Shown in pieces: positions 6,323-18,236 of a DNA stretch of 27,219 nucleotides. The position numbers and the translations under genes are program-made. Each line of letters starts with the position of its first letter. Within the stretch, counting starts at the first letter, position 1. The notes under the pieces were generated by a model. The model was not told where the DNA came from. It saw nothing but the letters and a program-made list of their open reading frames with translations, and did no database searches. Location of the stretch: contig DATCKS010000364.1 of assembly GCA_036562265.1 (NCBI GenBank), positions 1 through 27,219 on the forward strand, given 5' to 3'. The DNA comes from DASVDK01 sp036562265 [NCBI: Thermodesulfobacteriota bacterium] (GTDB lineage Bacteria; DASVDK01).

Positions 6323-6341
6323 CCTGACACGCCCTGTCAGG
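6323..6341. promoter_or_regulatory. Dyad CCTGACA-N5-TGTCAGG before the nurA cluster (operator or hairpin)
   Basis: A perfect 7-bp inverted repeat (6323-6329 and 6335-6341) with a 5-base centre, about 45 bases before the nurA start. The spacing of the half-sites is typical of an operator for a dimeric regulator, but the same sequence could form an RNA hairpin. No convincing -35/-10 pair was found beside it. It differs from the well-known LexA box consensus sequences. The downstream genes are DNA repair genes, so a damage-responsive regulator is a reasonable guess, but it is only inference. Confidence 0.4.
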
Positions 6342-6385: not shown

Positions 6386-7612
6386 ATGCTCGACCTGGGG
6401 CGACTCGCGGCGCAGATCCAGGCCCTCGGCGACGCCGAGGCGCAGGCGCTCACGCGGAGCGGCGCGGAGCTCGCGCGGGCGCGCGAGGAGCTGGCGAAGG
6501 CGACCGCCGCGCCCGAGCCGCTCGTGGCCAAGACCGATCGCGCGCGGACCTCGTGGCTCGTGGCGCGGCTCGCCGGGCCGCCCGGCGAGGCGACGCCGCC
6601 CCCGCCGCTGCCGGCGCGCGTCACGGTCATCGGCGTCGACGGCTCGCAGATCGAGCCGGACCACCACGAGGGGCTCGCCTGTTACGTGCTGAACGTCGGC
6701 ACCGTGGTGCTGCACTACGGGGAGCCGGCCGGCGCGCCGTGCGCGTTCCTCGAGAGCCACCCCCGCCTCTGCTACGAGGAGGCGGACGTCGCCGTCGTGG
6801 TGGGCGGCCGGCGCGTGCCGGTGACCGGCGAGCTGCTCGGTTTCAAGCGCAGCCTCGCCGAGCTGGATCACCTTTTGAGGCTCGCCCTCGCGGCGCGCGA
6901 GGAGGGGCGCAAGCACGTCGTCGGCCTGATCGACGGCAGCCTGATCCGCTGGGGCGCCGAGAACAGCCGCGTCGTCCCCGACACGTTCCTCGACGACTAC
7001 CTCGCGCGCTTCGAGCGGCTCCGCGAGGCGGGCGTGCCGCTCGCGGGCTACATCAGCCAGTCGCGCGCGGCCGACGTGGTGAACGCCCTTCGGGTGCAGG
7101 TCTGCCCGGAGGAGACGCCCGACTGCGACCGCTGCCCGTACGTCCCCGGGGCGACCTACCCGAGGGCCGACCGGTCGTGGGCGGGCCCGGGGCTCCCCTG
7201 CGAGGTGATCGCCGGGGTGCTCGACCGCCGGCTCTTCGAGAGCGTGCTGGCGGTGGGGGAGCGAAGCCCCCTCTTCGGCAGCCGGTCGTCGGTGCTCGCG
7301 AAGCGCTACGGCGAGACGCAGACGATCGACTTCTGCTACCTGAACGTCGGGCCGGAGCTGGCCCGGATCGAAGTCCCCCGCTGGGTCGCCCGGGACCCGG
7401 CGCTCCTCGGCCTGGTGCACGCCGTCTGCCTCGACCAGGCCCGCAAGGGGAACGGTTACCCGGTGGCGCTCGCCGAGGCCCATCAACGGGCCGTCGTGCG
7501 GGGCGCCGAGCGAACCCTCTTCTACCAGATGGTGGAGGAGGCGCTGGTCAAACGGGGGGTGAGGCGATGGCGGTCGCCCAAGGCGCTGCACAAGGTCGGG
7601 CTCACGGTATGA
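6386..7612 (+). CDS. nurA: NurA family 5'-3' DNA nuclease
   Basis: Predicted Mn-dependent nuclease that works with the HerA translocase to resect DNA ends. The protein has 408 residues. The N-terminal helical segment (1-75) precedes the nuclease core, which opens with VIGVDGSQIEP, placing the conserved catalytic Asp at D85. A second conserved acidic residue is D183 in GLIDGSLI. The C-terminal motif YPVALAEAHQRA includes H366 and matches the family's last conserved block. An unusual cysteine group, C240, C247, C250 and C272, lies between the second and last motifs. It is the first gene of the cluster, and its TGA overlaps the next ATG (ATGA). An upstream GGAGG (6368-6372) lies somewhat far from the ATG. 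A five-codon reading frame ends 3 bases before the start. Confidence 0.9.
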   Translation: MLDLGRLAAQIQALGDAEAQALTRSGAELARAREELAKATAAPEPLVAKTDRARTSWLVARLAGPPGEATPPPPLPARVTVIGVDGSQIEPDHHEGLACYVLNVGTVVLHYGEPAGAPCAFLESHPRLCYEEADVAVVVGGRRVPVTGELLGFKRSLAELDHLLRLALAAREEGRKHVVGLIDGSLIRWGAENSRVVPDTFLDDYLARFERLREAGVPLAGYISQSRAADVVNALRVQVCPEETPDCDRCPYVPGATYPRADRSWAGPGLPCEVIAGVLDRRLFESVLAVGERSPLFGSRSSVLAKRYGETQTIDFCYLNVGPELARIEVPRWVARDPALLGLVHAVCLDQARKGNGYPVALAEAHQRAVVRGAERTLFYQMVEEALVKRGVRRWRSPKALHKVGLTV

Positions 7613-8196
7613 ACGGCGAGATCGGCGAGGTCATCGGCTCGTCCAACACCGAGTTCATCGCGCAGGCGCACCTCCTCTACGAGTCGCCGGCCTTCGGCGC
7701 CTTCGTGCGCGTGGACGGGCGGGACGAGACGGTCTACGGCGTGGTCTTCGCGGCGTACACGCACAGCCTCGAGCCGAACCGGCTGGCCGTGGCCTACCAC
7801 CGGTCTGAACTCGAGCTGCGCGCCGAGCAGCCGCAGATCTTCGAGCTGCTCAAGACCAAGTTCGAGGCGGTCATCGTCGGCTACAAGGGCAAGGACGTCG
7901 TGCGCGCGCAGCTCCCCACCAAGCCGCCGCGGATCCACGCGTTCGTCTACCCGCTCCAGGCGCTCGAGGTGAAGCGGGTGACGGCCGACCTCGGCTTCCT
8001 GCGGTTGCTCCTGGCCGGGGCCAGGGTGCCGGGCCGCGCGCCGGCCGACGAGCTGATCGCGGCGGCGCTCAGGCAGGCGCTCGAGGCGCACGGCGGCGAC
8101 CGCGCGTTCCTCGTGCGGGCCGGCAAGGAGCTGGCCCGCCTGCTCAAGGACGACTACGAGACGCTCTCGTCGGTCCTCAGGAGGGTCCGGTCATGA
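7609..8196 (+). CDS. Stand-alone HAS-barrel-like protein, putative HerA/NurA partner
   Basis: A 195-residue protein translated from the ATG that overlaps the nurA stop, and itself overlapping the herA ATG (ATGA at both ends). Its N-terminus (IGEVIGSSNTEF, 5-16) has the same pattern as the HAS-barrel opening of HerA here (IGVIVRGSLTEG) and of ATP-synthase/HerA barrel domains. It is probably a beta-barrel of about 100 residues. The C-terminal half (about 110-195) appears mostly helical. There is no nucleotide-binding motif, signal peptide or membrane segment. Being locked between nurA and herA suggests a structural subunit that docks to the HerA hexamer or bridges it to NurA. The domain call rests on pattern recognition alone, and its biochemical role is unknown. 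Confidence 0.75.
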   Translation: MNGEIGEVIGSSNTEFIAQAHLLYESPAFGAFVRVDGRDETVYGVVFAAYTHSLEPNRLAVAYHRSELELRAEQPQIFELLKTKFEAVIVGYKGKDVVRAQLPTKPPRIHAFVYPLQALEVKRVTADLGFLRLLLAGARVPGRAPADELIAAALRQALEAHGGDRAFLVRAGKELARLLKDDYETLSSVLRRVRS

Positions 8197-9887
8197 GCGA
8201 ACGCCGCCGGATCGGCGTGATCGTGCGGGGCTCCCTCACCGAGGGGCTCGAGATGCGGCTCGACGAGGGGGAGTCGGTCGAGGACGTCCGCGCCGGGAAG
8301 TTCGTCGTGATCGAGGGGGAGAAGTCGGACTTCTTCTGCATGATCACCGACGTGCGGCTCGACGCCACGAACCCCGCCATCCTCGTCGACCCGCCGGCCG
8401 CCCAGGACGACGAGGCCGACGCCCTCATGCGCCAGGTCCTCTCGGGCACGAGCACGTACGGCACCGTGATGCTGAAGCCGATGCTCATGCTGCCCAGCAG
8501 GGACGACGCGGGGACGGCGAGCGAGGGCGCCGCGCGGGCGGCCGATCGGGGGACGCTGCCCTCCACGACCCAGATCGTGAAGACCGTGCCGAGGCACTTC
8601 TCGATCGTGGCCGAGGCCACCGAAGCCGACGTCAACCTCGTCTTCGGGAGCGAGGAGCAGGACCGCCGCTACTACTACATCGGCCGGCCGCTCGACATGG
8701 AGACCCCCGTCTGCCTCGACCTCGACCGCTTCATCGAGCGCAGCAACGGCATCTTCGGCCGCACCGGCACCGGCAAGACGTTCCTGACCCGGCTCATCCT
8801 CTCCGGCCTCGTGAAGAGCGGCAAGGCGTCGGCGCTCGTCTTCGACATGCACTCCGAGTACGGCTGGGGGGCGCGACGCGAGGGGGACCACGCCGAGGCC
8901 AAGGGGCTCAGGCAGCTCTTCGGCGCGTCGCGGGTCGCGGTCTTCAGCCTCGATCCCGAGTCGTCCCGGCGCCGCGGCGTCTCGCCCGACGTCGAGGTCA
9001 AGATCCCCTACGACCGGATCGACGTGGAGGACATCCTCCCGCTCGCCGACGAGCTGAACCTCAACCCGACCGCGGCCGACTCGCTCTACCTCGTCCAGGC
9101 GCAGTACGGGTCCGAGTGGCTCGAGCGGCTCCTCGGCATGGGGGCCGAGGAGGTCCGCGACCTCGCGAGGGAACTCGGCGCGCACGCCGAGTCGTTCGCC
9201 GCCGTGCACCGCAAGCTGTCGCGCCTCAAGCGACTCGACTTCCTCGTGCCGCGGGCGCCCGACGACGCGGTCGATCGGATCATGGAGGCGCTCGATCGGC
9301 GGCAGCACGTCGTCCTCGAGTTCGGCACGCGCACGGATCTGCTCGTCTACATGCTGGTGGCGAACATCCTCACCCGCGAGATCCGCGAGCGGTACGTGCG
9401 CAAGACCGAGACCTACCTCGCCACCAAGCGGCCGCAGGACAGGCCGCATCCCCTCGTCATCACCATCGAGGAGGCGCACAAGTTCCTCAACCCGCAGGCG
9501 GCGCGCCAGACCATCTTCGGCACGATCGCGCGCGAACTCCGGAAGTACTTCGTGTCGCTGCTCGTCGTCGACCAGCGCCCCTCGGGGATCGACGACGAGA
9601 TCCTCTCCCAGCTCGGCACCCGCGTGACGGCGCTCCTCTCCGACGAGAAGGACATCGCCGCGGTCCTCACCGGCGTCTCGAACGCGCAGTGGCTCCGCTC
9701 GGTCCTCGCCTCGCTCGACACCCGGCAGCAGGCGCTCCTCATGGGGCACGCGGTGCCGATGCCGGTGGTGATCCGCACGCGCGACTACGACGCGGCGTTC
9801 TACAGGGCGATGGGGGCCGAGGACGAGGAGCCGGGCCGGGGCGGCCGGGGCGCCCGAGCCATCGACGACCTCTTCGGCAGTCGGTAG
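8193..9887 (+). CDS. herA: HerA family hexameric DNA translocase/helicase
   Basis: FtsK-like ATPase that pumps double-stranded DNA and drives the NurA nuclease in end resection. The protein has 564 residues, close to archaeal HerA. An N-terminal HAS-barrel (about 5-100) is followed by the RecA-like motor. Walker A is GRTGTGKT at 189-196. Walker B ends in E426-E427, followed by A-H. The segment DQRPSGIDDEILSQLGTR soon after is the typical sensor and subunit-interface region. The start is firmly supported by AGGAGGG (8179-8185), 7 bases before the ATG, the strongest ribosome-binding site in the cluster. The following gene starts 13 bases after its stop. The ATPase motifs are intact, so an active motor is expected. 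Confidence 0.95.
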   Translation: MSERRRIGVIVRGSLTEGLEMRLDEGESVEDVRAGKFVVIEGEKSDFFCMITDVRLDATNPAILVDPPAAQDDEADALMRQVLSGTSTYGTVMLKPMLMLPSRDDAGTASEGAARAADRGTLPSTTQIVKTVPRHFSIVAEATEADVNLVFGSEEQDRRYYYIGRPLDMETPVCLDLDRFIERSNGIFGRTGTGKTFLTRLILSGLVKSGKASALVFDMHSEYGWGARREGDHAEAKGLRQLFGASRVAVFSLDPESSRRRGVSPDVEVKIPYDRIDVEDILPLADELNLNPTAADSLYLVQAQYGSEWLERLLGMGAEEVRDLARELGAHAESFAAVHRKLSRLKRLDFLVPRAPDDAVDRIMEALDRRQHVVLEFGTRTDLLVYMLVANILTREIRERYVRKTETYLATKRPQDRPHPLVITIEEAHKFLNPQAARQTIFGTIARELRKYFVSLLVVDQRPSGIDDEILSQLGTRVTALLSDEKDIAAVLTGVSNAQWLRSVLASLDTRQQALLMGHAVPMPVVIRTRDYDAAFYRAMGAEDEEPGRGGRGARAIDDLFGSR

Positions 9888-9900
9888 AATCGCCCTCGCC

Positions 9901-11187
9901 ATGCCGATCCGGCTGCTCCATACGGCCGATCTCCACTTCGGAATGGAGAACTACGGCCGGATCGATCCGGCGACCGGGATGAACCGCCGGCTCGTCGACT
10001 TCCGCGACCAGTTCGCCCGCGCCATCGACCACGCCCTCGAGCGCGACGTCGACCTCGTCCTCATCGTCGGCGACTGCTTCAAGACGCGCGATCCCCAGGC
10101 CACGCACCAGCGCGAGTTCGCAAGCTGCCTCCGGAAGGTGCTCGACCGGCGCATCCCGGTCGTCATCGTCCTCGGCAACCACGACACGCCGAACGCCATC
10201 GGCCGCGCCCACGCCCTCGCCGTCTTCGGCAGCCTCGGCGTCGCCCGGCTCACGCTGTTCGAGAAGCCGGGCGTCAAGGTCTTCGACACCTTCCACGGCC
10301 CCCTCCAGGTCGCCGCGCTCCCGTACGTGAGCCGCGCCTTCCTCCTCGACAAGGACGCCTACAAGAGCCTGTCGGTCGAGGAGGTGAACCGGACGATGGC
10401 CGAGAAGTGCGAGCACGCGCTGCGGGAACTCGCCTCGCGGCTCGACCCGAACCTGCCGACCGTCCTCGCCTATCACGGCTCGGTCGGCGGGGCGGTCTTC
10501 GGGAGCGAGCGGGGCGTCATGGTCGGGCACGACCTGGTGATCCCGTACGGCGCGATCGACGTGCGCGACGGGCACGGCCGCCCGGTGTGGGACTACGTGG
10601 CGCTCGGCCACATCCACCGCCACCAGGACCTCAACGAGGGGCGGCAGCCGCCGGTGGTCTACCCGGGCTCCATCGAGCGGATCGACTTCGGCGAGGAGCG
10701 CGAGGACAAGGGCTTCTGCATGGTGGAGGTCGAGCGGGGGCACGCGTCGTACGAGTTCGTGAAGCTCCCCGCGAGACCCTTCGTGACGCTCAGGCTCGAC
10801 CTCGACGTGGAGGCGCCCGACCCCGAGGCGGCGATCGCCGCCTGCCTCGCCGCGCGCGAGCGGGAGCACGGACCGGGCGGCGGGCTACGCGACGCGGTCG
10901 TGCGCGTCATCTGCACCGTCCGGGCGGGACGCGACACGTTCGACGACCGCCCGATCCGCCGCCGGCTCGACGAGGCGGGGGTCTACTACCTGGCCGGCAT
11001 CGCGCGGGAGGTGACGGGCGAGGCGGTCCGCTCGCGCGACAGCCGGCTCACCGAACGCCTCGGTCCGGTGGAAGCCGTGGAGCGGTACCTCGAGTCGCAG
11101 CCCGACCTCCTGCCGCGCCGCGATCGCCTCCTGGAGGCCTTGAGAGGCCTCCTGCGCGAGCGGGACGAGGCGGCCCTCCCGCGATGA
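9901..11187 (+). CDS. sbcD: Mre11/SbcD family DNA repair nuclease
   Basis: Metal-dependent phosphoesterase that partners Rad50/SbcC to cut hairpins and blocked DNA ends and to start double-strand break processing. The protein has 428 residues. The calcineurin-like motifs are complete: DLH at 10-12, GD at 57-58, GNHD at 92-95, a YHGSV block, and GHIH at 236-239. The extra C-terminal region (about 290-428) matches the capping and Rad50-binding portions in position. Its TGA overlaps the ATG of the Rad50 gene (ATGA at 11184-11187), as expected for subunits of one complex. The linkage to herA and nurA follows the archaeal Mre11-Rad50-HerA-NurA arrangement rather than the usual isolated bacterial sbcDC pair. 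Confidence 0.95.
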   Translation: MPIRLLHTADLHFGMENYGRIDPATGMNRRLVDFRDQFARAIDHALERDVDLVLIVGDCFKTRDPQATHQREFASCLRKVLDRRIPVVIVLGNHDTPNAIGRAHALAVFGSLGVARLTLFEKPGVKVFDTFHGPLQVAALPYVSRAFLLDKDAYKSLSVEEVNRTMAEKCEHALRELASRLDPNLPTVLAYHGSVGGAVFGSERGVMVGHDLVIPYGAIDVRDGHGRPVWDYVALGHIHRHQDLNEGRQPPVVYPGSIERIDFGEEREDKGFCMVEVERGHASYEFVKLPARPFVTLRLDLDVEAPDPEAAIAACLAAREREHGPGGGLRDAVVRVICTVRAGRDTFDDRPIRRRLDEAGVYYLAGIAREVTGEAVRSRDSRLTERLGPVEAVERYLESQPDLLPRRDRLLEALRGLLRERDEAALPR

Positions 11188-14100
11188 TCCCCAGACGCCT
11201 CGCCCTGCGCAACTTCCTCTCCTACGGGGACCGGGTCGAGCCGCTCGACTTCTCCGCGATCCACGTGGCCTGCCTCACCGGCGACAACGGCCACGGCAAG
11301 AGCGCGCTCCTCGACGCCATCACCTGGAGCCTCTTCGGCAAGGCGCGCGCCGGCGCGGACGACCTGGTGCGGCGCGGCCAGACGGAGATGTGGGTCGAGT
11401 TCGAGTTCGAGCTGGACGGCGCGGTCTACCGCGTCATCCGCAAGCGCGACATCTCGCGCAAGACCGGCGTCTCCGACCTCCAGTTCCAGGTCCGGGACCC
11501 GGCGACCGGCGCCTTCCGGTCCCTCACCGGCACCGGCATCCGCGAGACCGAGGAGCGGATCGCCGAGGTCCTGCGCCTCGACTACGAGACCTTCGTCAAC
11601 GCCTCGTTCCTCCTCCAGGGGCGCGCCGACGCCTTCACGCAGAAGACGCCGGCCGAGCGCAAGCGGATCCTCGCCGAGATCCTCTCCCTCGGCGTCTTCG
11701 ACGACCTCGAGGCGAGGGCCCGGGCGAAGCAACGGGAGGCCGAGGAGGTCGTCGCCGCCGCGAACCGCGCCATGGCCGCGCTCGAGGCGGCGCTGGCCGA
11801 CCGCCCGGCGGCCGAGGCGGAGCGCGAGCGCCTCGCGGCGGCCCTCTCCGCGGCCGAGGCGGCGCTCGCGGCCGACGAGGCGTCGCTCGCGGCCGCCCGC
11901 GCCGCCCACGCGGCGCTCGTCCAGGCGGAGGCCGACGCCGCGAGGCTCGGCGAGCGGATCGAGGAGACGCGGCGCCGGGCCGACGAGGCGCAGGCGCGCG
12001 CCGCGCGAGAGGCGGCCCGGGTGGCCGCCTACGAGCAGGTCATCGCGGAGGCTCCCACCATCGAGGCCGGGCTCGCCCGCCTGCGCGACCTCAGGGCGGC
12101 CGAGCAGGCGATGGCCGAGCGCCTGCAGCGCGAGCGGGCCCTCGACGCGAGGCGGACCCGGCTCGAGGCCGCGATCGCCGAGGCGAGGAGCCGGATCGAG
12201 GTGCGACGCGCCACGGTCGCCGAGGCCCACGCCGGGCTCGCGGGGCGCCTCGCCGAGGCCGAGGGGCTCCTTGCGGCGCGCGACGAGATCGAGGCCGGAC
12301 TCGCGGCGCTGCGCGCCGCCGAAGACGAGGAGCGGGCGTTCGCGGCGCGACTCGAGGAGTCGTTGCGCCTGACGAGCCTCGCGGCCGACCTCGAGCGCCG
12401 GGTGGCCGAGGCGGAGATGGCCAGACGGCTCGAGCGCGAGCGGCTCGCCGCGCGCCTGGCCGACCTGACGCGGCGCGCCGAGGGGGCCGACGAGCAGCGC
12501 GCCCGGCTTGCCGCGATCGACCAGAAGCTCGCGGCGCTCGACGTCGCGGCGCGCCGGCGGGAGGAGGTCTTCGAGGCGGGGACGGCGGCGCGGACGCGAT
12601 TCGAGGCGATCCCCGACGAGGTCGCGCGGCTCACCGGCGAGATCCAGACGATCGAGGCGCGGCTCGCGGACCTCAGGCAGGCCGCGGGGGACTGCCCGCT
12701 CTGCGACCAGCCGCTCCCCGACGATCGGCGCGAGGCGGTGGTCGAGCGGATGATCCGCGAAGAACTCGAGCCGCGACGCGCGAAGCTCGCCGAGTTCGAG
12801 CGGATCGCCCCGGCGCTCGACCGGGAGGTCCGGCGGCTGCGCGAGGAGTACGTCCGGCTCGGCCGCGAGCTGGCGGCGCGCGAGGCGCTCCAGCAGGAGC
12901 GCTCCCGCGTGGCGGCCGCGGTGGCCGACGCCGAGGCGGCGGCCGGCGAGCTGGCCGAGCTGGCCGAGCGGGTCCGCGCGGCCGACGCGGCGCTCGCGGA
13001 CGGCGCGATCGCGCCGGAGGTCCGCGCCGCCCTCGCCGAGGCGCGCACGGCCCTTGCAGGGCTCGGCTACGACCGCGCGGCGCACGACCGGGTGCGCGAG
13101 CGGGTGGCCGGCCTGCGTCCGTTCGAAACGCGGGCCGCGAGGCTCGAGCAGGCCGCACGCGACGCCGCCGGCCTGCGGGAGGAGCTCTCGGCGACGGCGG
13201 CGGAGCTGGCCGACCTCGACCGTACGCTCGCAGAGGAGACGTACGCCGAGACCCAGCGGGCCGAACTGGCCCGCGTCGCCGCGGAGATCGCCGAGGTGGC
13301 CTACGACGCCGCCGAGCACGCCGCCTGTCGCAAGGCGCTCGCCGAGCACGAGGCGTTCGAGCGGCGGGCCGCCGAGCTGGCGCAGGCCGTCCGCGAGGTC
13401 GAAGGCGCCCGCGCAGCCCTCGCCGAGGCGCGCGCCTCGGCCTCCGCCGCGCGCGAACTGGCCGCGCGGCTCGCCGAGGAGCGGGCGGCCCGTCTCGCCG
13501 AGGCGGCGCGGCTGCCCGAGGTGGCGCGCGAGATCGCCGCGCTCGAGGCGCGGGTCGCGGACCGGCGCCGCGAGGTGGGCGACCTGCGCGAGCGGGTGGG
13601 GCGGGCCGACGCGCGGCTCGCCGAACTCGACCGGAAGCAGCAGGAGCTGGACACCGCCCGCGCGCAGGTCCAGGCGCTCGGCGAGACGCGGCGGACGTAC
13701 GCGGACCTCGCGCGGATCCTGGGGCGCAACGGCGTCCAGGCGCTCATCATCGAGAACGCGCTGCCCGAGATCGAGGACGAGGCGAACCGTCTGCTCGGCC
13801 GCCTCACCGACTACGCGATGCGGATCAAGCTCGAGACGCAGCGGGACAAGAAGACCGGCGGCGTGGCCGAGACGCTCGAGATCCGCATCTCGGACGAGCA
13901 GGGGACGCGCCCCTACGAGACCTTCTCGGGCGGCGAGGCCTTCCGGGTGAACTTCGCCCTGCGGATCGCACTGTCGCGCCTGCTCGCCAGGCGCGCGGGG
14001 GCGAGCCTGCAGACGCTGGTCGTGGACGAGGGCTTCGGCACCCAGGACGGCAGCGGCAAGCAGAAGGTCGTCGAGGCGATCCAGGCCGTCCAGGGGGACT

Positions 14101-14210
14101 TCGCGAAGATCCTGGTCATCACGCACCTCGAGGACCTCAAGGACCGCTTCCCGGCCCGCATCGAGGTGACCAAGCACCCCGAGTACGGGTCCGTCTACCG
14201 GGTGGTGTGA
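11184..14210 (+). CDS. sbcC: Rad50/SbcC family SMC-like ATPase
   Basis: ATPase arm of the Mre11-Rad50 complex, which tethers and senses DNA ends. With the start at 11184 the protein has 1008 residues. Walker A is GDNGHGKS at 33-40. The ABC signature is SGGE at 915-918 and Walker B ends in D948-E949. Between the two ATPase halves run long Ala/Glu/Arg-rich coiled coils (about 170-490 and 525-840). The zinc-hook motif CPLC occupies residues 504-507, at the exact midpoint of the chain, as needed for symmetrical antiparallel arms. It is somewhat longer than archaeal Rad50 and close to bacterial SbcC. It overlaps the Mre11 stop by 4 bases and the next gene by 1 base (TGATG). The reading frame stays open upstream into the Mre11 gene, but the ATP-binding fold begins at 11184. 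Confidence 0.95.
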   Translation: MIPRRLALRNFLSYGDRVEPLDFSAIHVACLTGDNGHGKSALLDAITWSLFGKARAGADDLVRRGQTEMWVEFEFELDGAVYRVIRKRDISRKTGVSDLQFQVRDPATGAFRSLTGTGIRETEERIAEVLRLDYETFVNASFLLQGRADAFTQKTPAERKRILAEILSLGVFDDLEARARAKQREAEEVVAAANRAMAALEAALADRPAAEAERERLAAALSAAEAALAADEASLAAARAAHAALVQAEADAARLGERIEETRRRADEAQARAAREAARVAAYEQVIAEAPTIEAGLARLRDLRAAEQAMAERLQRERALDARRTRLEAAIAEARSRIEVRRATVAEAHAGLAGRLAEAEGLLAARDEIEAGLAALRAAEDEERAFAARLEESLRLTSLAADLERRVAEAEMARRLERERLAARLADLTRRAEGADEQRARLAAIDQKLAALDVAARRREEVFEAGTAARTRFEAIPDEVARLTGEIQTIEARLADLRQAAGDCPLCDQPLPDDRREAVVERMIREELEPRRAKLAEFERIAPALDREVRRLREEYVRLGRELAAREALQQERSRVAAAVADAEAAAGELAELAERVRAADAALADGAIAPEVRAALAEARTALAGLGYDRAAHDRVRERVAGLRPFETRAARLEQAARDAAGLREELSATAAELADLDRTLAEETYAETQRAELARVAAEIAEVAYDAAEHAACRKALAEHEAFERRAAELAQAVREVEGARAALAEARASASAARELAARLAEERAARLAEAARLPEVAREIAALEARVADRRREVGDLRERVGRADARLAELDRKQQELDTARAQVQALGETRRTYADLARILGRNGVQALIIENALPEIEDEANRLLGRLTDYAMRIKLETQRDKKTGGVAETLEIRISDEQGTRPYETFSGGEAFRVNFALRIALSRLLARRAGASLQTLVVDEGFGTQDGSGKQKVVEAIQAVQGDFAKILVITHLEDLKDRFPARIEVTKHPEYGSVYRVV

Positions 14211-15535
14211 TGCCGACGCAGATCTACCGTGATCCGGTCCACAACATCATCGCCCTCGACCGGGACCATCGCGAGGACCGGCTCCTCATCGAGCTCGTCG
14301 ATTGTCCCGAGGTGCAGCGGCTGCGCCGCGTGCGGCAGCTCGGCCTCGCCGTCTACGCCTACGCCGGGGCCGACCACAGCCGCTTCAGCCACTCGGTCGG
14401 CGTCATGCACGTCGCCAGGCGCATCCTCTCGCGCCTCGGGCGCGACCACGCCATCGACCCCTGGGACCGGCTCGTCACCGCCGCCGCCGCGCTGCTGCAC
14501 GACGTCGGCCACTGGCCGTTCAGCCACGTCGTCGAGGACATCGTCGGCGAGCGGCACGAGCGATGGAGCGTAAGGCTCGTGGAGGACCCCGACGGCGCCC
14601 TCCACCGCCGGCTCGCGGCGCTCGACCCGCGGCTGCCGGCGGCCGTCGTCGAGCGGATGCGTCACGGCGGCCGGCCGCGGTTCCTGGCCGACCTGGTCGC
14701 CTCGCAGCTCGACGCCGACCGGTTCGACTACCTCCTGCGCGACTCGCTCATGACCGGCGTCACCTACGGGCAGTACGACCTCGAGTGGATCCTCGAGACG
14801 CTCGCGGTCGACCCCGCGGGCGACCGGATCGTCGTCCACGAGAAGGGGCACCTCGCGGTGGTCGCCTACCTCCAGGCGCGCCACCACATGTACCAGCAGG
14901 TCTACTTCCACAAGACCGTGCGCGCGGCGGACGTGATGCTCCGGGCGCTGATCGGCCGGGCCGTCGACCTCGCCCGCGCAGGCGCGCTCGCCTTCCCGCC
15001 GGCCGGCTCGCCGCTGGGGCGCGCCCTCGGCAACGGCGCCGCGCTCACGCCGCGCGACTTCCTGGCGCTCGACGACGCGACGCTCCTCCACGCCATGCGC
15101 GAGTGGGCGGCCGATCCCGACCCGATTCTGGCCGACCTCGCCTCGCGCCTCCTCGACCGGCGCCTCTTCAAGACCGTCGAGGTCCCGCCGGCCCGGTACC
15201 AGGACCTGCCGGTCCTCGCCGCCGAGGCGGGCGAGGTCATCCGGAAGGCGGGAGGCGACCCGCGCTACTACCTCCAGGTCGACCGCGCGGCCGACACCCC
15301 CTACCGCACCTACGGCGCCGACTCCGAGGTCTCCCCCGGCGGGACCATCGTGGTCCATCGCCCGGCCCGGACGCCGGCCTTCGTGGAGATCCGCGATCTC
15401 TCGCCCGCGGTCGAGGGGCTCGCGCGCGACCGCCGCGACATCATCCGCCTCTGCTTCCCCGACCGCATCGGGGACCGCGAGGTGCGGTCGACCATCGAGG
15501 CGCTCGTCGGCGCGGCGCGGGACGAGGACGACTGA
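14210..15535 (+). CDS. HD-domain dNTP triphosphohydrolase-like protein (SAMHD1/EF1143-type)
   Basis: Predicted metal-dependent phosphohydrolase, 441 residues. The N-terminus IYRDPVHNII is typical of the family that includes E. faecalis EF1143 and human SAMHD1. Metal ligands appear intact: H61 in SRFSHSVGVMH, H97-D98 in ALLHDVGHWPFSH, and D168 in QLDADRFDYLLRDS. These enzymes hydrolyse dNTPs to deoxynucleoside and triphosphate and are often allosterically controlled by nucleotides. The substrate here is inferred from family membership and not shown by the sequence. The ATG shares one base with the rad50 stop, which strongly suggests translational coupling to the resection module. Human SAMHD1 is known to bind and stimulate MRE11, so the pairing may be functionally meaningful. 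The next gene starts 11 bases later. Confidence 0.88.
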   Translation: MPTQIYRDPVHNIIALDRDHREDRLLIELVDCPEVQRLRRVRQLGLAVYAYAGADHSRFSHSVGVMHVARRILSRLGRDHAIDPWDRLVTAAAALLHDVGHWPFSHVVEDIVGERHERWSVRLVEDPDGALHRRLAALDPRLPAAVVERMRHGGRPRFLADLVASQLDADRFDYLLRDSLMTGVTYGQYDLEWILETLAVDPAGDRIVVHEKGHLAVVAYLQARHHMYQQVYFHKTVRAADVMLRALIGRAVDLARAGALAFPPAGSPLGRALGNGAALTPRDFLALDDATLLHAMREWAADPDPILADLASRLLDRRLFKTVEVPPARYQDLPVLAAEAGEVIRKAGGDPRYYLQVDRAADTPYRTYGADSEVSPGGTIVVHRPARTPAFVEIRDLSPAVEGLARDRRDIIRLCFPDRIGDREVRSTIEALVGAARDEDD

Positions 15536-15546
15536 GGGACGGCGAC

Positions 15547-16410
15547 GTGATTCCGATCGTCAAAGGCCACGGCCTCGGCAACGACTACCTGGTTCTCGCC
15601 GAGTGGGACCTCCCGCAGCCGCTCGACCCGCCGGCGGTGCGGCTCCTCTGCCACCGGCACCTCGGGGTCGGCAGCGACGGCATTCTCCTTGCCACCTCGC
15701 GCACCGAGCCCTACGGGCTTCGGATCTTCAACCCGGACGGCTCCGAGGCCGAGAAGAGCGGCAACGGCCTCAGGATCTTCGCGAAGTACCTCGTCGAACA
15801 CGGCGTGGCGACGACCGACGCGTTCGGCATCCGCACGGCCGGCGGGGACGTGCGGGCCGAGGTGCGGCGCGAGGAGGGGCGCGTCGTCTCGGTCGCGGTG
15901 GACATGGGCCGCGCCACGTTCGACGCGGCGGCCATCCCGGTGCTGGGGCCGCCGCGCGAGGTCGTGGACGAGCCGCTTGCCGTGGGCGACCGGACGGTGC
16001 GGATCACGGCCCTCTCGGTGGGCAACCCCCACTGCGTCGTCTTCGTCGACCGTCTCGAGGAGAGCCTGCTCCACGACCTCGGGCCGCGGCTCGAGCGCCA
16101 CCCGGCCTTCCCGCGCCGCACGAACGTCCAGCTCGCCCGCGTGGTGGCGCGAGACCGCCTCGAGGTGCTCGTGTGGGAGCGCGGCGCCGGCCCCACGATG
16201 GCCTCGGGGTCGTCGTCCTGCGCCGTCGCCGCGGCCGCCGTCAAGCGCGGCCTCGCCGACCGGCGGGTCGCCGTGCACCTGCCCGGGGGCCGCCTCGACG
16301 TCGAGGTGGGCGCCGACTTCGCGCTCAGGCTCGACGGGCCCGTCGAGGAGGTCTTCGAGGGCGTCCTCGCGCCGGACCTCTGCCGCCGGCTCGGCTGGCC
16401 GCACGGCTAG
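15547..16410 (+). CDS. dapF: DapF-family protein with both catalytic cysteines replaced by serine
   Basis: Homologue of diaminopimelate epimerase, the cofactor-independent racemase that makes meso-DAP for lysine and peptidoglycan; 287 residues, GTG start. The fold markers are clear: GLGNDYLV at 10-17, NPDGSEAEKSGNGLR from 62, SVGNPHCV at 157-164, and ERGAGPTMASG from 211. In DapF the two acid/base cysteines lie in CGNG and in the ACGTGA-type motif. Here they are S71 (SGNG, codon AGC) and S220 (ASGSS, codon TCG); C225 nearby does not align with the catalytic position. The second change needs two base substitutions, so a sequencing error is unlikely. The protein may be a weak epimerase, act on another substrate, or be non-catalytic. 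The gene lies 11 bases after the HD gene and 32 before the PolX-like gene. Confidence 0.88.
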   Translation: MIPIVKGHGLGNDYLVLAEWDLPQPLDPPAVRLLCHRHLGVGSDGILLATSRTEPYGLRIFNPDGSEAEKSGNGLRIFAKYLVEHGVATTDAFGIRTAGGDVRAEVRREEGRVVSVAVDMGRATFDAAAIPVLGPPREVVDEPLAVGDRTVRITALSVGNPHCVVFVDRLEESLLHDLGPRLERHPAFPRRTNVQLARVVARDRLEVLVWERGAGPTMASGSSSCAVAAAAVKRGLADRRVAVHLPGGRLDVEVGADFALRLDGPVEEVFEGVLAPDLCRRLGWPHG

Positions 16411-16442: not shown

Positions 16443-18236
16443 ATGGAGAACGGCGAGTTCGCAGCGGCGTTGCGGGAGCTGGCCGACCTCCTCGAGTTCG
16501 AGGAGGCGGAGCTGCCGAAGGTGGCCGCCTATCGGAAGGCGGCCGCGTCGATCGAGGCGTGCGCGGAGGACGTCGAGCGGCTCGCGCGCGAGGGGCGACT
16601 CGAGACGCTGCCGGGGGTGGGGCCGTGGGTGTCGCGGCTGCTCGGCGAACTCGCCCGGACCGGCCGCCTCGCCGCGCTCGACGAGGCGCGCGACCGGCTG
16701 CCGCGCGGGGTGCGGGACGTCATCGCGCTGCCGGGCGTGGGGCCGCGCCGCGCCGCCCGCTTCCTGGCGGTGGCCCGCGTCGCCTCCCTGTCGGACCTCG
16801 ACCGCGCCCTGCGCGACGGCAAGCTCGCGCGAGCCGGGGTCGCGCCCGCCGACCTCGAGACCATCGCCCGGTCGCTCGAGCTTGCCCGTCTCGGCGCCGG
16901 CGCGCGGCCGCTCGGGTACGTGCTGCCGAGAGCGCGTGCCATCGCCGAGCGGCTCGCGTCCCTGCCGGACGTGCTGCGCGTCCGCATCGCCGGCGAGGTG
17001 CGCCGCGGGCGCGGCATCGTCGGCGAGCTGGCGCTCGCCGCGGCGGCCGAGTCGCCCGAGGCGCTCCTCGCCGCGTTCCGCGCGGACCCCCACGTCCGTC
17101 TCGTCCTGCCGCCGCCCGCGCCGGGCGCCGCGCGCGTCGCCATCGACGAGGGGCTCGTCGTCGCGCTGCACACGGCGGCGCCCGCGGCCTTCGGCAGCAC
17201 CCTCTGGCGGGCGACCGGGCACGCGCGGCACGTCGAGCAGGTCGAGGCGATCCTCTCGAGGCCCAGGCGCGGCGAGCGCCCCCTGACGGTGCGCGAGTTC
17301 GAGGACGAGCGGGACGTCTACGAGGCGGCCCGCCTCGCCTTCGTCCCGCCCGAGCTGCGCGAGGGACGAGGGGAGGTCGAGGCCGCGCGGGAGGGCCGCC
17401 TGCCTCGCGTCGTCGAGGCCGAGGAGGTCGAGGGAGATCTCCGCGTGCAGAGCGACTTCACGGGCGGCGCTCACCCGCCCGAGCGGCTCGCCGCCGCGGC
17501 GGCGTCGGCCGGACTCAGGTGGCTTGCGGTGGTCGACCCGGCGCGCGGCCCGCGTCGCCCCTCCGGCCTCGACGTCGAGCGCGCCGCACGGCGGGCCGAG
17601 GTGCTCGCCGCCGCCCGTTCCACCGCGTCCTGCGGTCTCGTCGCCGGCGTCGAGGCGCCGGTCGCACAGGGCGGCGTCCTCGAGGCCGATCCCGCCGTGC
17701 TGGCGGACGCCGAGCTCTGCATCGCCGTCCTCGATCCCGCAGGCCCGCTCGCGGCCTGCTCCCGCGCGGAGCGGACCGCGGCGGTCGTGCGGGTCCTGCT
17801 CGAGCGCGAGGCCGACCTGGTGGCGCTCGCGCCCGACCCGACCGGTTCGCCGCGAGGCGGCGCCGACCTCGCGCAGGCGTTCGGCGAGGAAGACGCCGAC
17901 GCGCCGGCCGAGGGACGGGCAAGCGTGCGTCCGCTCGCGGCCTTCGTCGACCTCGGGGCCATTCTCGCGGCTGCCTCCTCGGCCGGCGCCGGGCTCCTCG
18001 TGCCGGCGCACGCCGCCGGCAGCCTCCTCGGCCCGGCGGACCTGAGGCGGGCGGCGGCGCTGGGCGTCCCGCTCGCCCTCGGCAGCGGCGCGCGCGCCGT
18101 ACAGGAGATGTGGTCGCTCGAGATCGGCGTCGCGCTCGTGCGGCGCGCCGGCCTCGGTCCGGAGGCGCTGCTCAACACGAGGACCGAGGCGGAGCTGCGC
18201 GCCTGGCTTGCCGCTCGACGGGGCGCGAGACGGTGA
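16443..18236 (+). CDS. polX: PolX-PHP family protein with both active sites lost
   Basis: Full-length (597 residues) homologue of bacterial family X DNA polymerase fused to a PHP nuclease. Two helix-hairpin-helix motifs are intact, LPGVGP at 56-61 and 96-101, so DNA binding is likely. The linker PPELREGRGEVEAAREGRLP (302-321) is a clear PolX hallmark. The palm motif that normally reads GSxRRG...GDxD is GEVRRGRGIVGELA (184-197), so the two Asp are E195 and A197. The third Asp is A241 (VALH), and TGS is TGH. In the PHP domain DLHxH is DLRVQ (332-336) and TDH is VDP. Polymerase and phosphoesterase chemistry therefore look impossible by the known mechanisms. The intact frame argues for a retained structural role. 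It could be a paralogue of an active PolX elsewhere. Confidence 0.88.
   Translation: MENGEFAAALRELADLLEFEEAELPKVAAYRKAAASIEACAEDVERLAREGRLETLPGVGPWVSRLLGELARTGRLAALDEARDRLPRGVRDVIALPGVGPRRAARFLAVARVASLSDLDRALRDGKLARAGVAPADLETIARSLELARLGAGARPLGYVLPRARAIAERLASLPDVLRVRIAGEVRRGRGIVGELALAAAAESPEALLAAFRADPHVRLVLPPPAPGAARVAIDEGLVVALHTAAPAAFGSTLWRATGHARHVEQVEAILSRPRRGERPLTVREFEDERDVYEAARLAFVPPELREGRGEVEAAREGRLPRVVEAEEVEGDLRVQSDFTGGAHPPERLAAAAASAGLRWLAVVDPARGPRRPSGLDVERAARRAEVLAAARSTASCGLVAGVEAPVAQGGVLEADPAVLADAELCIAVLDPAGPLAACSRAERTAAVVRVLLEREADLVALAPDPTGSPRGGADLAQAFGEEDADAPAEGRASVRPLAAFVDLGAILAAASSAGAGLLVPAHAAGSLLGPADLRRAAALGVPLALGSGARAVQEMWSLEIGVALVRRAGLGPEALLNTRTEAELRAWLAARRGARR

Follow-up and report, generated by a model that had tools for sequence, protein, structure and literature searches.

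Organization of the locus

The window analysed here is a stretch of 27,219 nucleotides (positions 1 to 27,219 of contig DATCKS010000364.1, assembly GCA_036562265.1) from a bacterium assigned to Thermodesulfobacteriota by NCBI and to DASVDK01 by GTDB. It contains a compact run of genes that encode the nuclease NurA, a small protein with a HAS barrel, the DNA translocase HerA, Mre11, Rad50, and an HD phosphohydrolase (Table 1). The small gene between nurA and herA, hereafter the HAS gene, probably specifies an overlooked third part of the HerA-NurA machine.

Table 1. Genes of the run, with their positions in the window and the family matches of their products
Gene	Position	Strand	Length (aa)	Description	Matches
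nurA	6386-7612	+	408	RNase H-like nuclease	PF09376 4.9e-32
HAS gene	7609-8196	+	195	Small HAS-barrel protein, proposed third subunit	PF09378 3.9e-7, 30.5 bits (cut-off 25.2)
herA	8193-9887	+	564	Hexameric DNA translocase family	PF01935 (DUF87) 2.7e-35; own HAS barrel PF09378 5.8e-8
mre11/sbcD	9901-11187	+	428	Phosphoesterase	TIGR00619 (sbcd) 1.1e-34, over cut-off; PF00149
rad50/sbcC	11184-14210	+	1008	ATPase	TIGR00618 (sbcc) 1.3e-90, under cut-off; PF13476 2.2e-19
HD gene	14210-15535	+	441	HD phosphohydrolase, SAMHD1/EF1143-like	PF01966 1.6e-10; PDB 2o6i 1.3e-66
dapF	15547-16410	+		Next gene of the run	PF01678 2.6e-54 (frame from 15550)

A first-pass annotation had described six co-directional genes with five tight junctions, and all coordinates were recovered exactly as it gave them. 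ATGA overlaps at 7609-7612 and 8193-8196 link nurA and herA on one strand via the HAS gene. A gap of 13 bases (9888-9900) precedes mre11, which overlaps rad50 by ATGA at 11184-11187, and rad50 meets the HD gene in TGATG at 14208-14212. Third-position GC is 0.96-0.98 across all six frames. The run continues past the HD gene, since dapF begins with a GTG codon 11 bases after the HD stop. The identities proposed for the six products are backed by Pfam and NCBIfam. The accompanying statement that their motifs are intact was borne out by comparison with relatives for the HerA Walker A and B motifs and the NurA DGS motif, and by inspection by eye together with family matches for Mre11 and Rad50.

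Conservation of gene order in relatives

Related loci were collected by scanning contigs with the window HerA. The best 80 loci were used, although more existed. To find neighboring genes, tblastn was combined with profiles built by iteration, both at E up to 1e-5. NurA, HAS, and HerA occur in this order on one strand at 17 of the 80 loci, in some cases with gaps of up to ~0.5 kb between genes. These linked loci span several phyla and names, namely Tectomicrobia, Entotheonella, Latescibacterota, Handelsmanbacteria, Gemmatimonadetes, Gemmatimonas, Armatimonadetes, Chloroflexi, Ktedonobacter, and one other bacterium. The remaining 63 loci, several of them short, have neither NurA nor HAS near HerA. 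Mre11 was detected at five of the 80 loci and Rad50 at three; mre11 follows in five of the 17 linked loci. In locus L002, a gene on the opposite strand stands between herA and mre11.

All five genes from nurA to rad50 stand in a row in L001, L037, and L127 (genome G028), with a gene for a PolX-like protein further on. By the same search, the HD gene was found at none of the 80 loci, and none was seen in L127, which rules it out as a conserved operon member. Because the HD gene is absent from related HerA loci and the run extends into dapF, the six-gene set is not a natural unit. The grouping put forward in the first-pass annotation thus survives in part: the survey of herA neighborhoods that it had called for recovered HerA and NurA with their HAS partner, and in some relatives with Mre11 and Rad50, whereas the six-gene order did not recur. 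The natural unit is NurA-HAS-HerA.

lexA, radA, and recA lie upstream of nurA on the same strand in L001, L037, L127, and L129 (genome G029), all from genomes of the Tectomicrobia phylum, and one or two genes separate recA from nurA. That interval holds mraZ in L037 and L127, and a HerA-like ATPase and a RusA resolvase in L001, with RusA directly before nurA. In L129, lexA-radA-recA is followed by a gene for a HerA-like ATPase, a fragment that resembles RusA (21.9 bits, cut-off 22.8), and then nurA-HAS-herA, but mre11 and rad50 do not come next. Of these neighbors, radA and recA of L001 and recA of L127 were examined with Pfam; the other radA and recA genes were named by eye, radA from its domain make-up.

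In a quick HerA tree the window groups with two Tectomicrobia (SH-aLRT 97), and its placement among the relatives is based on HerA and DnaA alone. Linked and unlinked layouts require five changes on this tree by parsimony, two of them forced by the starred branches.

The second HerA-like ATPase between recA and nurA (L001:5919-7673, + strand; L129:5158-7095, - strand; genomes G001 and G029) is an oddity in its own right. It has a DUF87 motor and a C-terminal match to DnaX_C (tau) of 31.9 bits in L001 and 22.6 bits in L129 (cut-off 26.2), so that a HerA-type motor bears a clamp-loader tail.

Co-occurrence of the HAS gene with HerA

The occurrence of the HAS gene was examined with a profile from alignment A1, which contains 16 HAS proteins. 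The gene is present in single copy in all 27 whole HerA genomes hand-picked from the 80 loci, including those in which HAS, HerA, and NurA lie apart. Since each genome gave one match, the profile ignores the HAS domain of HerA itself. Where HerA stands alone, a HAS-NurA pair is found in Dadabacteria, HR37, Thermodesulfobacteriota, Rhodothermota, and Herpetosiphonaceae. In Cyanobacteria, Roseiflexus, and Dependentiae, HAS lies near neither partner (~1.5 kb inspected on each side); in Dependentiae it adjoins an RNase HII-like gene, named by eye. NurA was present in all 12 genomes tried. Four of the five genomes examined from the phylum of L001 carry HAS.

A larger, automatically drawn sample of 121 Chloroflexota was scored with thresholds of E up to 1e-3 for HAS, 1e-60 for HerA, and 1e-5 for NurA. 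HAS was found in 51 of these genomes, HerA in 52, and NurA in 79. HAS and HerA occur together in 50 and are both missing from 68, leaving one genome with HAS only (G043, where the match lies at a contig end) and two with HerA only (G052 and G065). Every HAS-bearing genome also has NurA. HAS and NurA share a strand and lie no more than 3 kb apart in 46 of 51 cases, and HAS and HerA are no more than 4 kb apart in 31 of 50. In the 28 genomes where all three are linked, the order is always NurA-HAS-HerA. No genome among the 121 has NurA near HerA without HAS near either.

Among 98 Cyanobacteria, HAS was detected in 47 and HerA in 45, with both in 44 and neither in 50. The exceptions are three genomes with HAS only (G180, G199, and G224) and one with HerA only (G195, in which the HerA match contains two stops). 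The cyanobacterial pairs are never adjacent: 18 share a contig, the nearest 267 kb apart, and 26 are on different contigs. Co-retention of HAS and HerA hence outlasts the loss of gene linkage.

HerA of this clade is thus carried by more than two fifths of the sampled Chloroflexota (52/121) and Cyanobacteria (45/98), nearly always with the HAS gene. Searches of the open-access literature returned no study of this small gene, which appears to be an under-described but steady third partner of this bacterial HerA. The available text of PMC12234771 reports that UCYN-A2 lacks the orthogroups 'HAS barrel domain protein' and 'NurA domain-containing protein' of UCYN-A1, with no statement there of which HAS protein is meant. 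It also lists as missing a 'Putative ATPase', which may or may not be HerA.

Predicted structures of HAS and NurA

An AlphaFold model of the HAS protein, computed from 16 rows, reached a mean pLDDT of 86.5 and a pTM of 0.81. It consists of a beta barrel (residues 1-115, approximately nucleotides 7609-7953) and a helical C-terminal tail (residues 118-194). The best Foldseek matches are the N-termini of HerA proteins (9x1m_A at 2.8e-7, TdpA, Sso HerA, DUF4297-HerA, and SIR2-HerA). VIA-align placed the HerA barrel of 4d2i_B first (Z 14.1, rmsd 3.5, 115 residues aligned) and gave Z 11.9 for D. radiodurans HerA (7wrx_E, rmsd 3.5, 108 aligned). The tail beyond residue 160 is barely covered by structural matches, and the C-terminal helices are conserved, with G172, Y183, L186, and R192 invariant in the 16 rows of A1. 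Sequence relatives of HAS were sought in the PDB at E up to 10 and none was found. No NCBIfam family matched NurA or HAS at E up to 0.01, and neither protein matched PHROGs, in which HerA and the HD protein match two families each. As modeled, HAS is a HerA-type HAS barrel without a motor, extended by a helical tail.

The NurA model (pLDDT 90.4) has Sso NurA (2ygk) as its top Foldseek match (4.7e-9, query TM-score 0.46) and also matches D. radiodurans NurA (5.2e-7); the profile of the window NurA family had no PDB sequence match at E up to 0.001. The DGS aspartates D85 and D183 are invariant in the columns of alignment A2. In addition, window NurA carries a four-cysteine motif, C240, C247, C250, and C272 (codons at 7103-7135 and 7199-7201), in a region where residues 251-270 have a pLDDT near 60. 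Of 28 aligned NurA rows, eight without the motif (L039, L043, L056, L093, L103, L113, L114, and L116) were excluded; the 20 retained have cysteine at positions 240, 250, and 272 in every row, at 247 in 19, and at 99 in 18. Because rows were picked by the motif, column 272 alone is independent support. These cysteines may form a metal or Fe-S site. A text search of PMC9960219 for cysteine, zinc, and iron-sulfur gave no occurrence.

Family assignment of HerA, Mre11, Rad50, and the HD protein

The window HerA combines a HAS barrel with a DUF87 motor, as expected of HerA, and its Walker A (8757-8780) and Walker B (9459-9479) motifs are conserved in relatives. Searches of solved structures with the window HerA and with its profile (E 0.001) gave no match to D. 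radiodurans HerA. Mre11 scores 120.4 bits against TIGR00619 (cut-off 77.65) and falls under the cut-offs of the archaeal Mre11 equivalogs. Rad50 reaches 304.8 bits against TIGR00618, below the cut-off of 478.5, and is likewise under those of the Rad50 equivalogs; it exceeds the cut-offs of PF13476 and of the zinc hook family PF04423 (3.7e-6, residues 486-525, approximately 12639-12758).

The HD protein aligns with 2o6i over residues 4-423 at 1.3e-66, the structure of EF1143. With an HD domain and whole-length similarity, it belongs with the SAMHD1/EF1143-like proteins and is a putative dNTPase. A parallel with eukaryotic SAMHD1-MRE11, described in the available part of PMC9640623, is attractive, but here it is based on one genome.

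Relation to known HerA-NurA systems

The operon is genuine and represents a known type. Bacterial HerA-NurA, also with sbcD and sbcC, has been published (PMC9960219, PMC5448004, in the text available). In D. radiodurans, HerA binds NurA via its HAS barrel, and the accessible text calls bacterial NurA-HerA limited to a few bacteria (PMC9960219). The D. radiodurans and Thermus systems, where HerA is also named HepA, share with the window the nurA-herA order, the combination of HAS barrel and RecA-like motor, the nuclease on the HAS crown, and a role in recombination, as far as described in the parts of PMC9960219 and PMC5448004 that are accessible. They have two components, however: the nurA stop and the hepA start of Thermus overlap, which leaves no room for a gene between them, according to the same portion of PMC5448004, whereas the window has the HAS gene at that place. 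In Oceanithermus profundus, sbcD and sbcC lie downstream of nurA-hepA, so this system is likewise bacterial with Mre11-Rad50 homologs, and the available text of PMC5448004 mentions no HAS gene. The archaeal HerA-NurA-Mre11-Rad50 operon of Sulfolobus, Pyrococcus, and Thermococcus unites the same four enzyme families. The accessible portions of PMC2288612 and PMC12977600 mention no separate HAS-barrel gene in it, while NurA of the window family has the four-cysteine motif.

HerA-type motors with a HAS crown also occur in HerA-SIR2 (Nezha), HerA-DUF4297, and Thermus TdpAB. In these systems the HAS crown docks the effector. The window differs from them in having NurA as the effector and an extra small HAS subunit, and in the lexA-radA-recA neighborhood of its relatives.

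A three-subunit model and its alternatives

Taken together, we regard it as probable, though well short of certain, that the operon encodes a three-subunit bacterial end-processing machine made of NurA, HerA, and the small HAS subunit, encoded with Mre11-Rad50. Mre11-Rad50 would bind a break and open or clean it. The HerA hexamer would then load and pump duplex DNA, while the barrel of the small protein would pack against the HAS-barrel crown of HerA itself, or close to it, with the helical tail of the small protein holding NurA. In turn, NurA would cut the strands fed through the HerA ring, leaving a 3' tail for RecA. HAS would accordingly be a dedicated subunit that docks NurA on HerA. What was observed are the gene identities and order, the predicted HAS fold, the one-copy co-occurrence of HAS and HerA, and the lexA/radA/recA neighborhood of relatives; physical contact, geometry, stoichiometry, resection polarity, and a role in the organism of the window are what we infer. 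A wider proposal holds that a broad range of bacteria outside the Deinococcus-Thermus type (Cyanobacteria, Chloroflexota, Tectomicrobia, Latescibacterota, and others) has a distinct HerA-NurA-HAS nuclease, in which HAS is the obligatory NurA-HerA adapter and the NurA of many lineages has a metal or Fe-S site built from four cysteines; its chances appear evenly balanced.

Several points weigh against the three-subunit machine. The window HerA reaches the cut-off of no NCBIfam HerA equivalog, and this extends to the repair types (helicase_HerA, 63.2 of 970 bits; HerA_Thermprot, 79.4 of 800 bits). F1-ATPase barrels reach Z 10.4 to 11.2 against the HAS model and tie with the weaker HerA rows. The Fisher values for HAS-HerA association (2e-30 in Chloroflexota, 4e-23 in Cyanobacteria) overstate independence, as presence and absence track clades, and HAS occurs without detected HerA in 4 of the 219 genomes and HerA without HAS in 3. 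Moreover, NurA is present but both HAS and this clade's HerA are missing in 27 of the 121 Chloroflexota, so NurA can function in their absence and may have another partner or use in those genomes. The arrangement in Thermus, without an intervening gene, implies that a third subunit is not universal for HerA-NurA. Finally, HerA-NurA of T. kodakarensis cleaves both strands, and the authors of that study are doubtful of a role in resection (PMC12977600).

The same authors propose an antiviral role, and the machine of the window could similarly degrade incoming phage or plasmid DNA, in the manner of HerA-SIR2 and HerA-DUF4297. HerA folds of defense systems are among the closest structures, the window HerA matches 15 PADLOC models (14 HerA and one mad8; best 1.7e-35), Rad50 matches LmuB and others, and the HD protein matches a dGTPase model. 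The best NCBIfam match of HerA is HerA_antiphage (93.1 bits), yet this is far under the cut-off of 800, and HerA_antiphage_2 follows at 64.7 of 850 bits; as HerA falls below antiphage and repair equivalogs alike, these cut-offs decide neither way. NurA, HAS, and Mre11 have no PADLOC match, and neither a SIR2 nor a DUF4297 effector adjoins the window herA, whose neighbors are HAS and Mre11. In Cyanobacteria, HAS and HerA lie apart, unlike the genes of a transferable defense cassette. Resection is favored over defense because lexA, radA, and recA surround the operon in relatives, as seen in four Tectomicrobia-phylum genomes, and a defensive function is unlikely.

The main rival to the bridging role concerns the HAS protein itself. 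By mimicking the HerA crown, HAS might occupy NurA (or HerA) and restrain the nuclease before it engages a break. A motor-less HAS barrel would suit such a brake, and the closer linkage of HAS to NurA (46/51) than to HerA (31/50) is expected of a mimic that binds NurA. More losses would be expected of a brake, however, than are seen: of the genomes with either gene, 50/53 in Chloroflexota and 44/48 in Cyanobacteria have both. The conserved helical part with its four invariant residues also suggests more than mimicry. We consider the brake unlikely and a bridging subunit the best reading. It is more doubtful still, and in our view very unlikely, that the arrangement is an accident of a compact GC-rich run in which NurA-HerA alone matters and the rest are passengers. 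The HD gene and dapF are indeed not conserved members (0/80 for HD), mre11 is present in only 5 of the 17 linked loci, and rad50 in 3 of the 80. Nevertheless, HAS is retained with HerA even when unlinked, the order NurA-HAS-HerA holds in all 28 fully linked Chloroflexota, and the five-gene order recurs in L001, L037, and G028. Passenger status is already unlikely for the HAS gene, and it stands for HD.

If HAS is a subunit, reconstitutions of this bacterial type from two proteins are incomplete, and cyanobacteria amenable to genetics offer a way to test how a nuclease dimer fits a six-fold motor.

Other repair genes and dnaA in relatives

The first-pass annotation had taken the lack of recF at the dnaA locus as a sign of a special pathway and had proposed the operon as the main break-processing machine of the lineage. 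The former has to be rejected for the relatives, as recF exceeds its family cut-off in 22 of 25 of them, including G002, G028, G029, and G030; the other three have frame-broken pieces (G001), pieces (G007), or nothing near the cut-off (G005).

RecB is over its cut-off in one of eight relatives, G029, where RecC and RecD (TIGR01447) are as well. In G001, an AddA-like protein (TIGR02785, 276.5 bits, cut-off 707.65) is encoded next to split frames, which we read as a putative AddB from their position and PDDEXK_1 hits; a 671-aa frame near the AddA-like gene had no NCBIfam family match. Paired AddAB-like frames are found in G004 (Handelsmanbacteria) and G005 (Latescibacterota). In G002 (Entotheonella) and G028, each on one contig of approximately genome length, neither a RecB-like nor an AddAB-like frame was found, although a 1270-aa UvrD-like frame of G002 was left without a family scan. 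The long UvrD-like frame of G028 has a PcrA-like score and an N-terminal extension. Among four operon-bearing relatives of the phylum, one has RecBCD, one an AddAB-like pair, and two have neither. PDDEXK_1 is over its cut-off in 22 of 25 relatives, many of the frames being short.

In relatives, the HerA-NurA machine thus occurs alongside RecF, and some of them also have AddAB or RecBCD. The idea of a main machine is unsupported, given recF in the relatives, RecBCD in G029, and AddAB-like proteins in G001, G004, and G005. It could hold in some lineages, such as those of G002 and G028, in which neither RecBCD nor AddAB was found.

Five relatives (G001, G002, G028, G029, and G003) have two dnaA genes each, one of them beside recF; in G001 a dnaN-like gene, recognized by eye, lies between dnaA and recF. 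The other copy is near nurA, in the lexA-radA-recA-nurA region, in G001, G002, and G028, and on another contig in G029 and G003. The window DnaA scores higher against the copy not linked to recF in G001, G002, G028, and G029, whereas in G003 it is nearer the recF-linked copy (406 vs 363 bits). The window may therefore carry a second kind of dnaA locus.

Long frames with a PDDEXK_1 match were also seen in G001 and G002 (L126:1625-4702, 1025 aa; L132:2515-4947, 810 aa). Our guess is that they represent a nuclease-helicase fusion.

Additional features of the window

A perfect inverted repeat, CCTGACA-N5-TGTCAGG, is located at 6323-6341, 44 bases upstream of nurA, and is a candidate LexA-type operator. 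It is not above chance, as shuffles lead to an expectation of 0.65 matches at up to three mismatches, and the window contains no second match. Its 12-base core (spacer 4-6) recurs once among the relatives' loci, within another frame of L109. The window yielded no RNA family at gathering score and no tRNA.

Downstream of dapF, a PolX-like protein (16455-18236) shows HHH_8 and weak thumb matches, but palm and PHP families were not matched at E up to 1. Its catalytic aspartates and metal histidines seem replaced when inspected by eye, and it may be a pseudo-enzyme. Between dnaA and lexA, positions 1666-2811 encode a stand-alone UvrC N-terminal/Cho-like GIY-YIG protein with a UVR motif.

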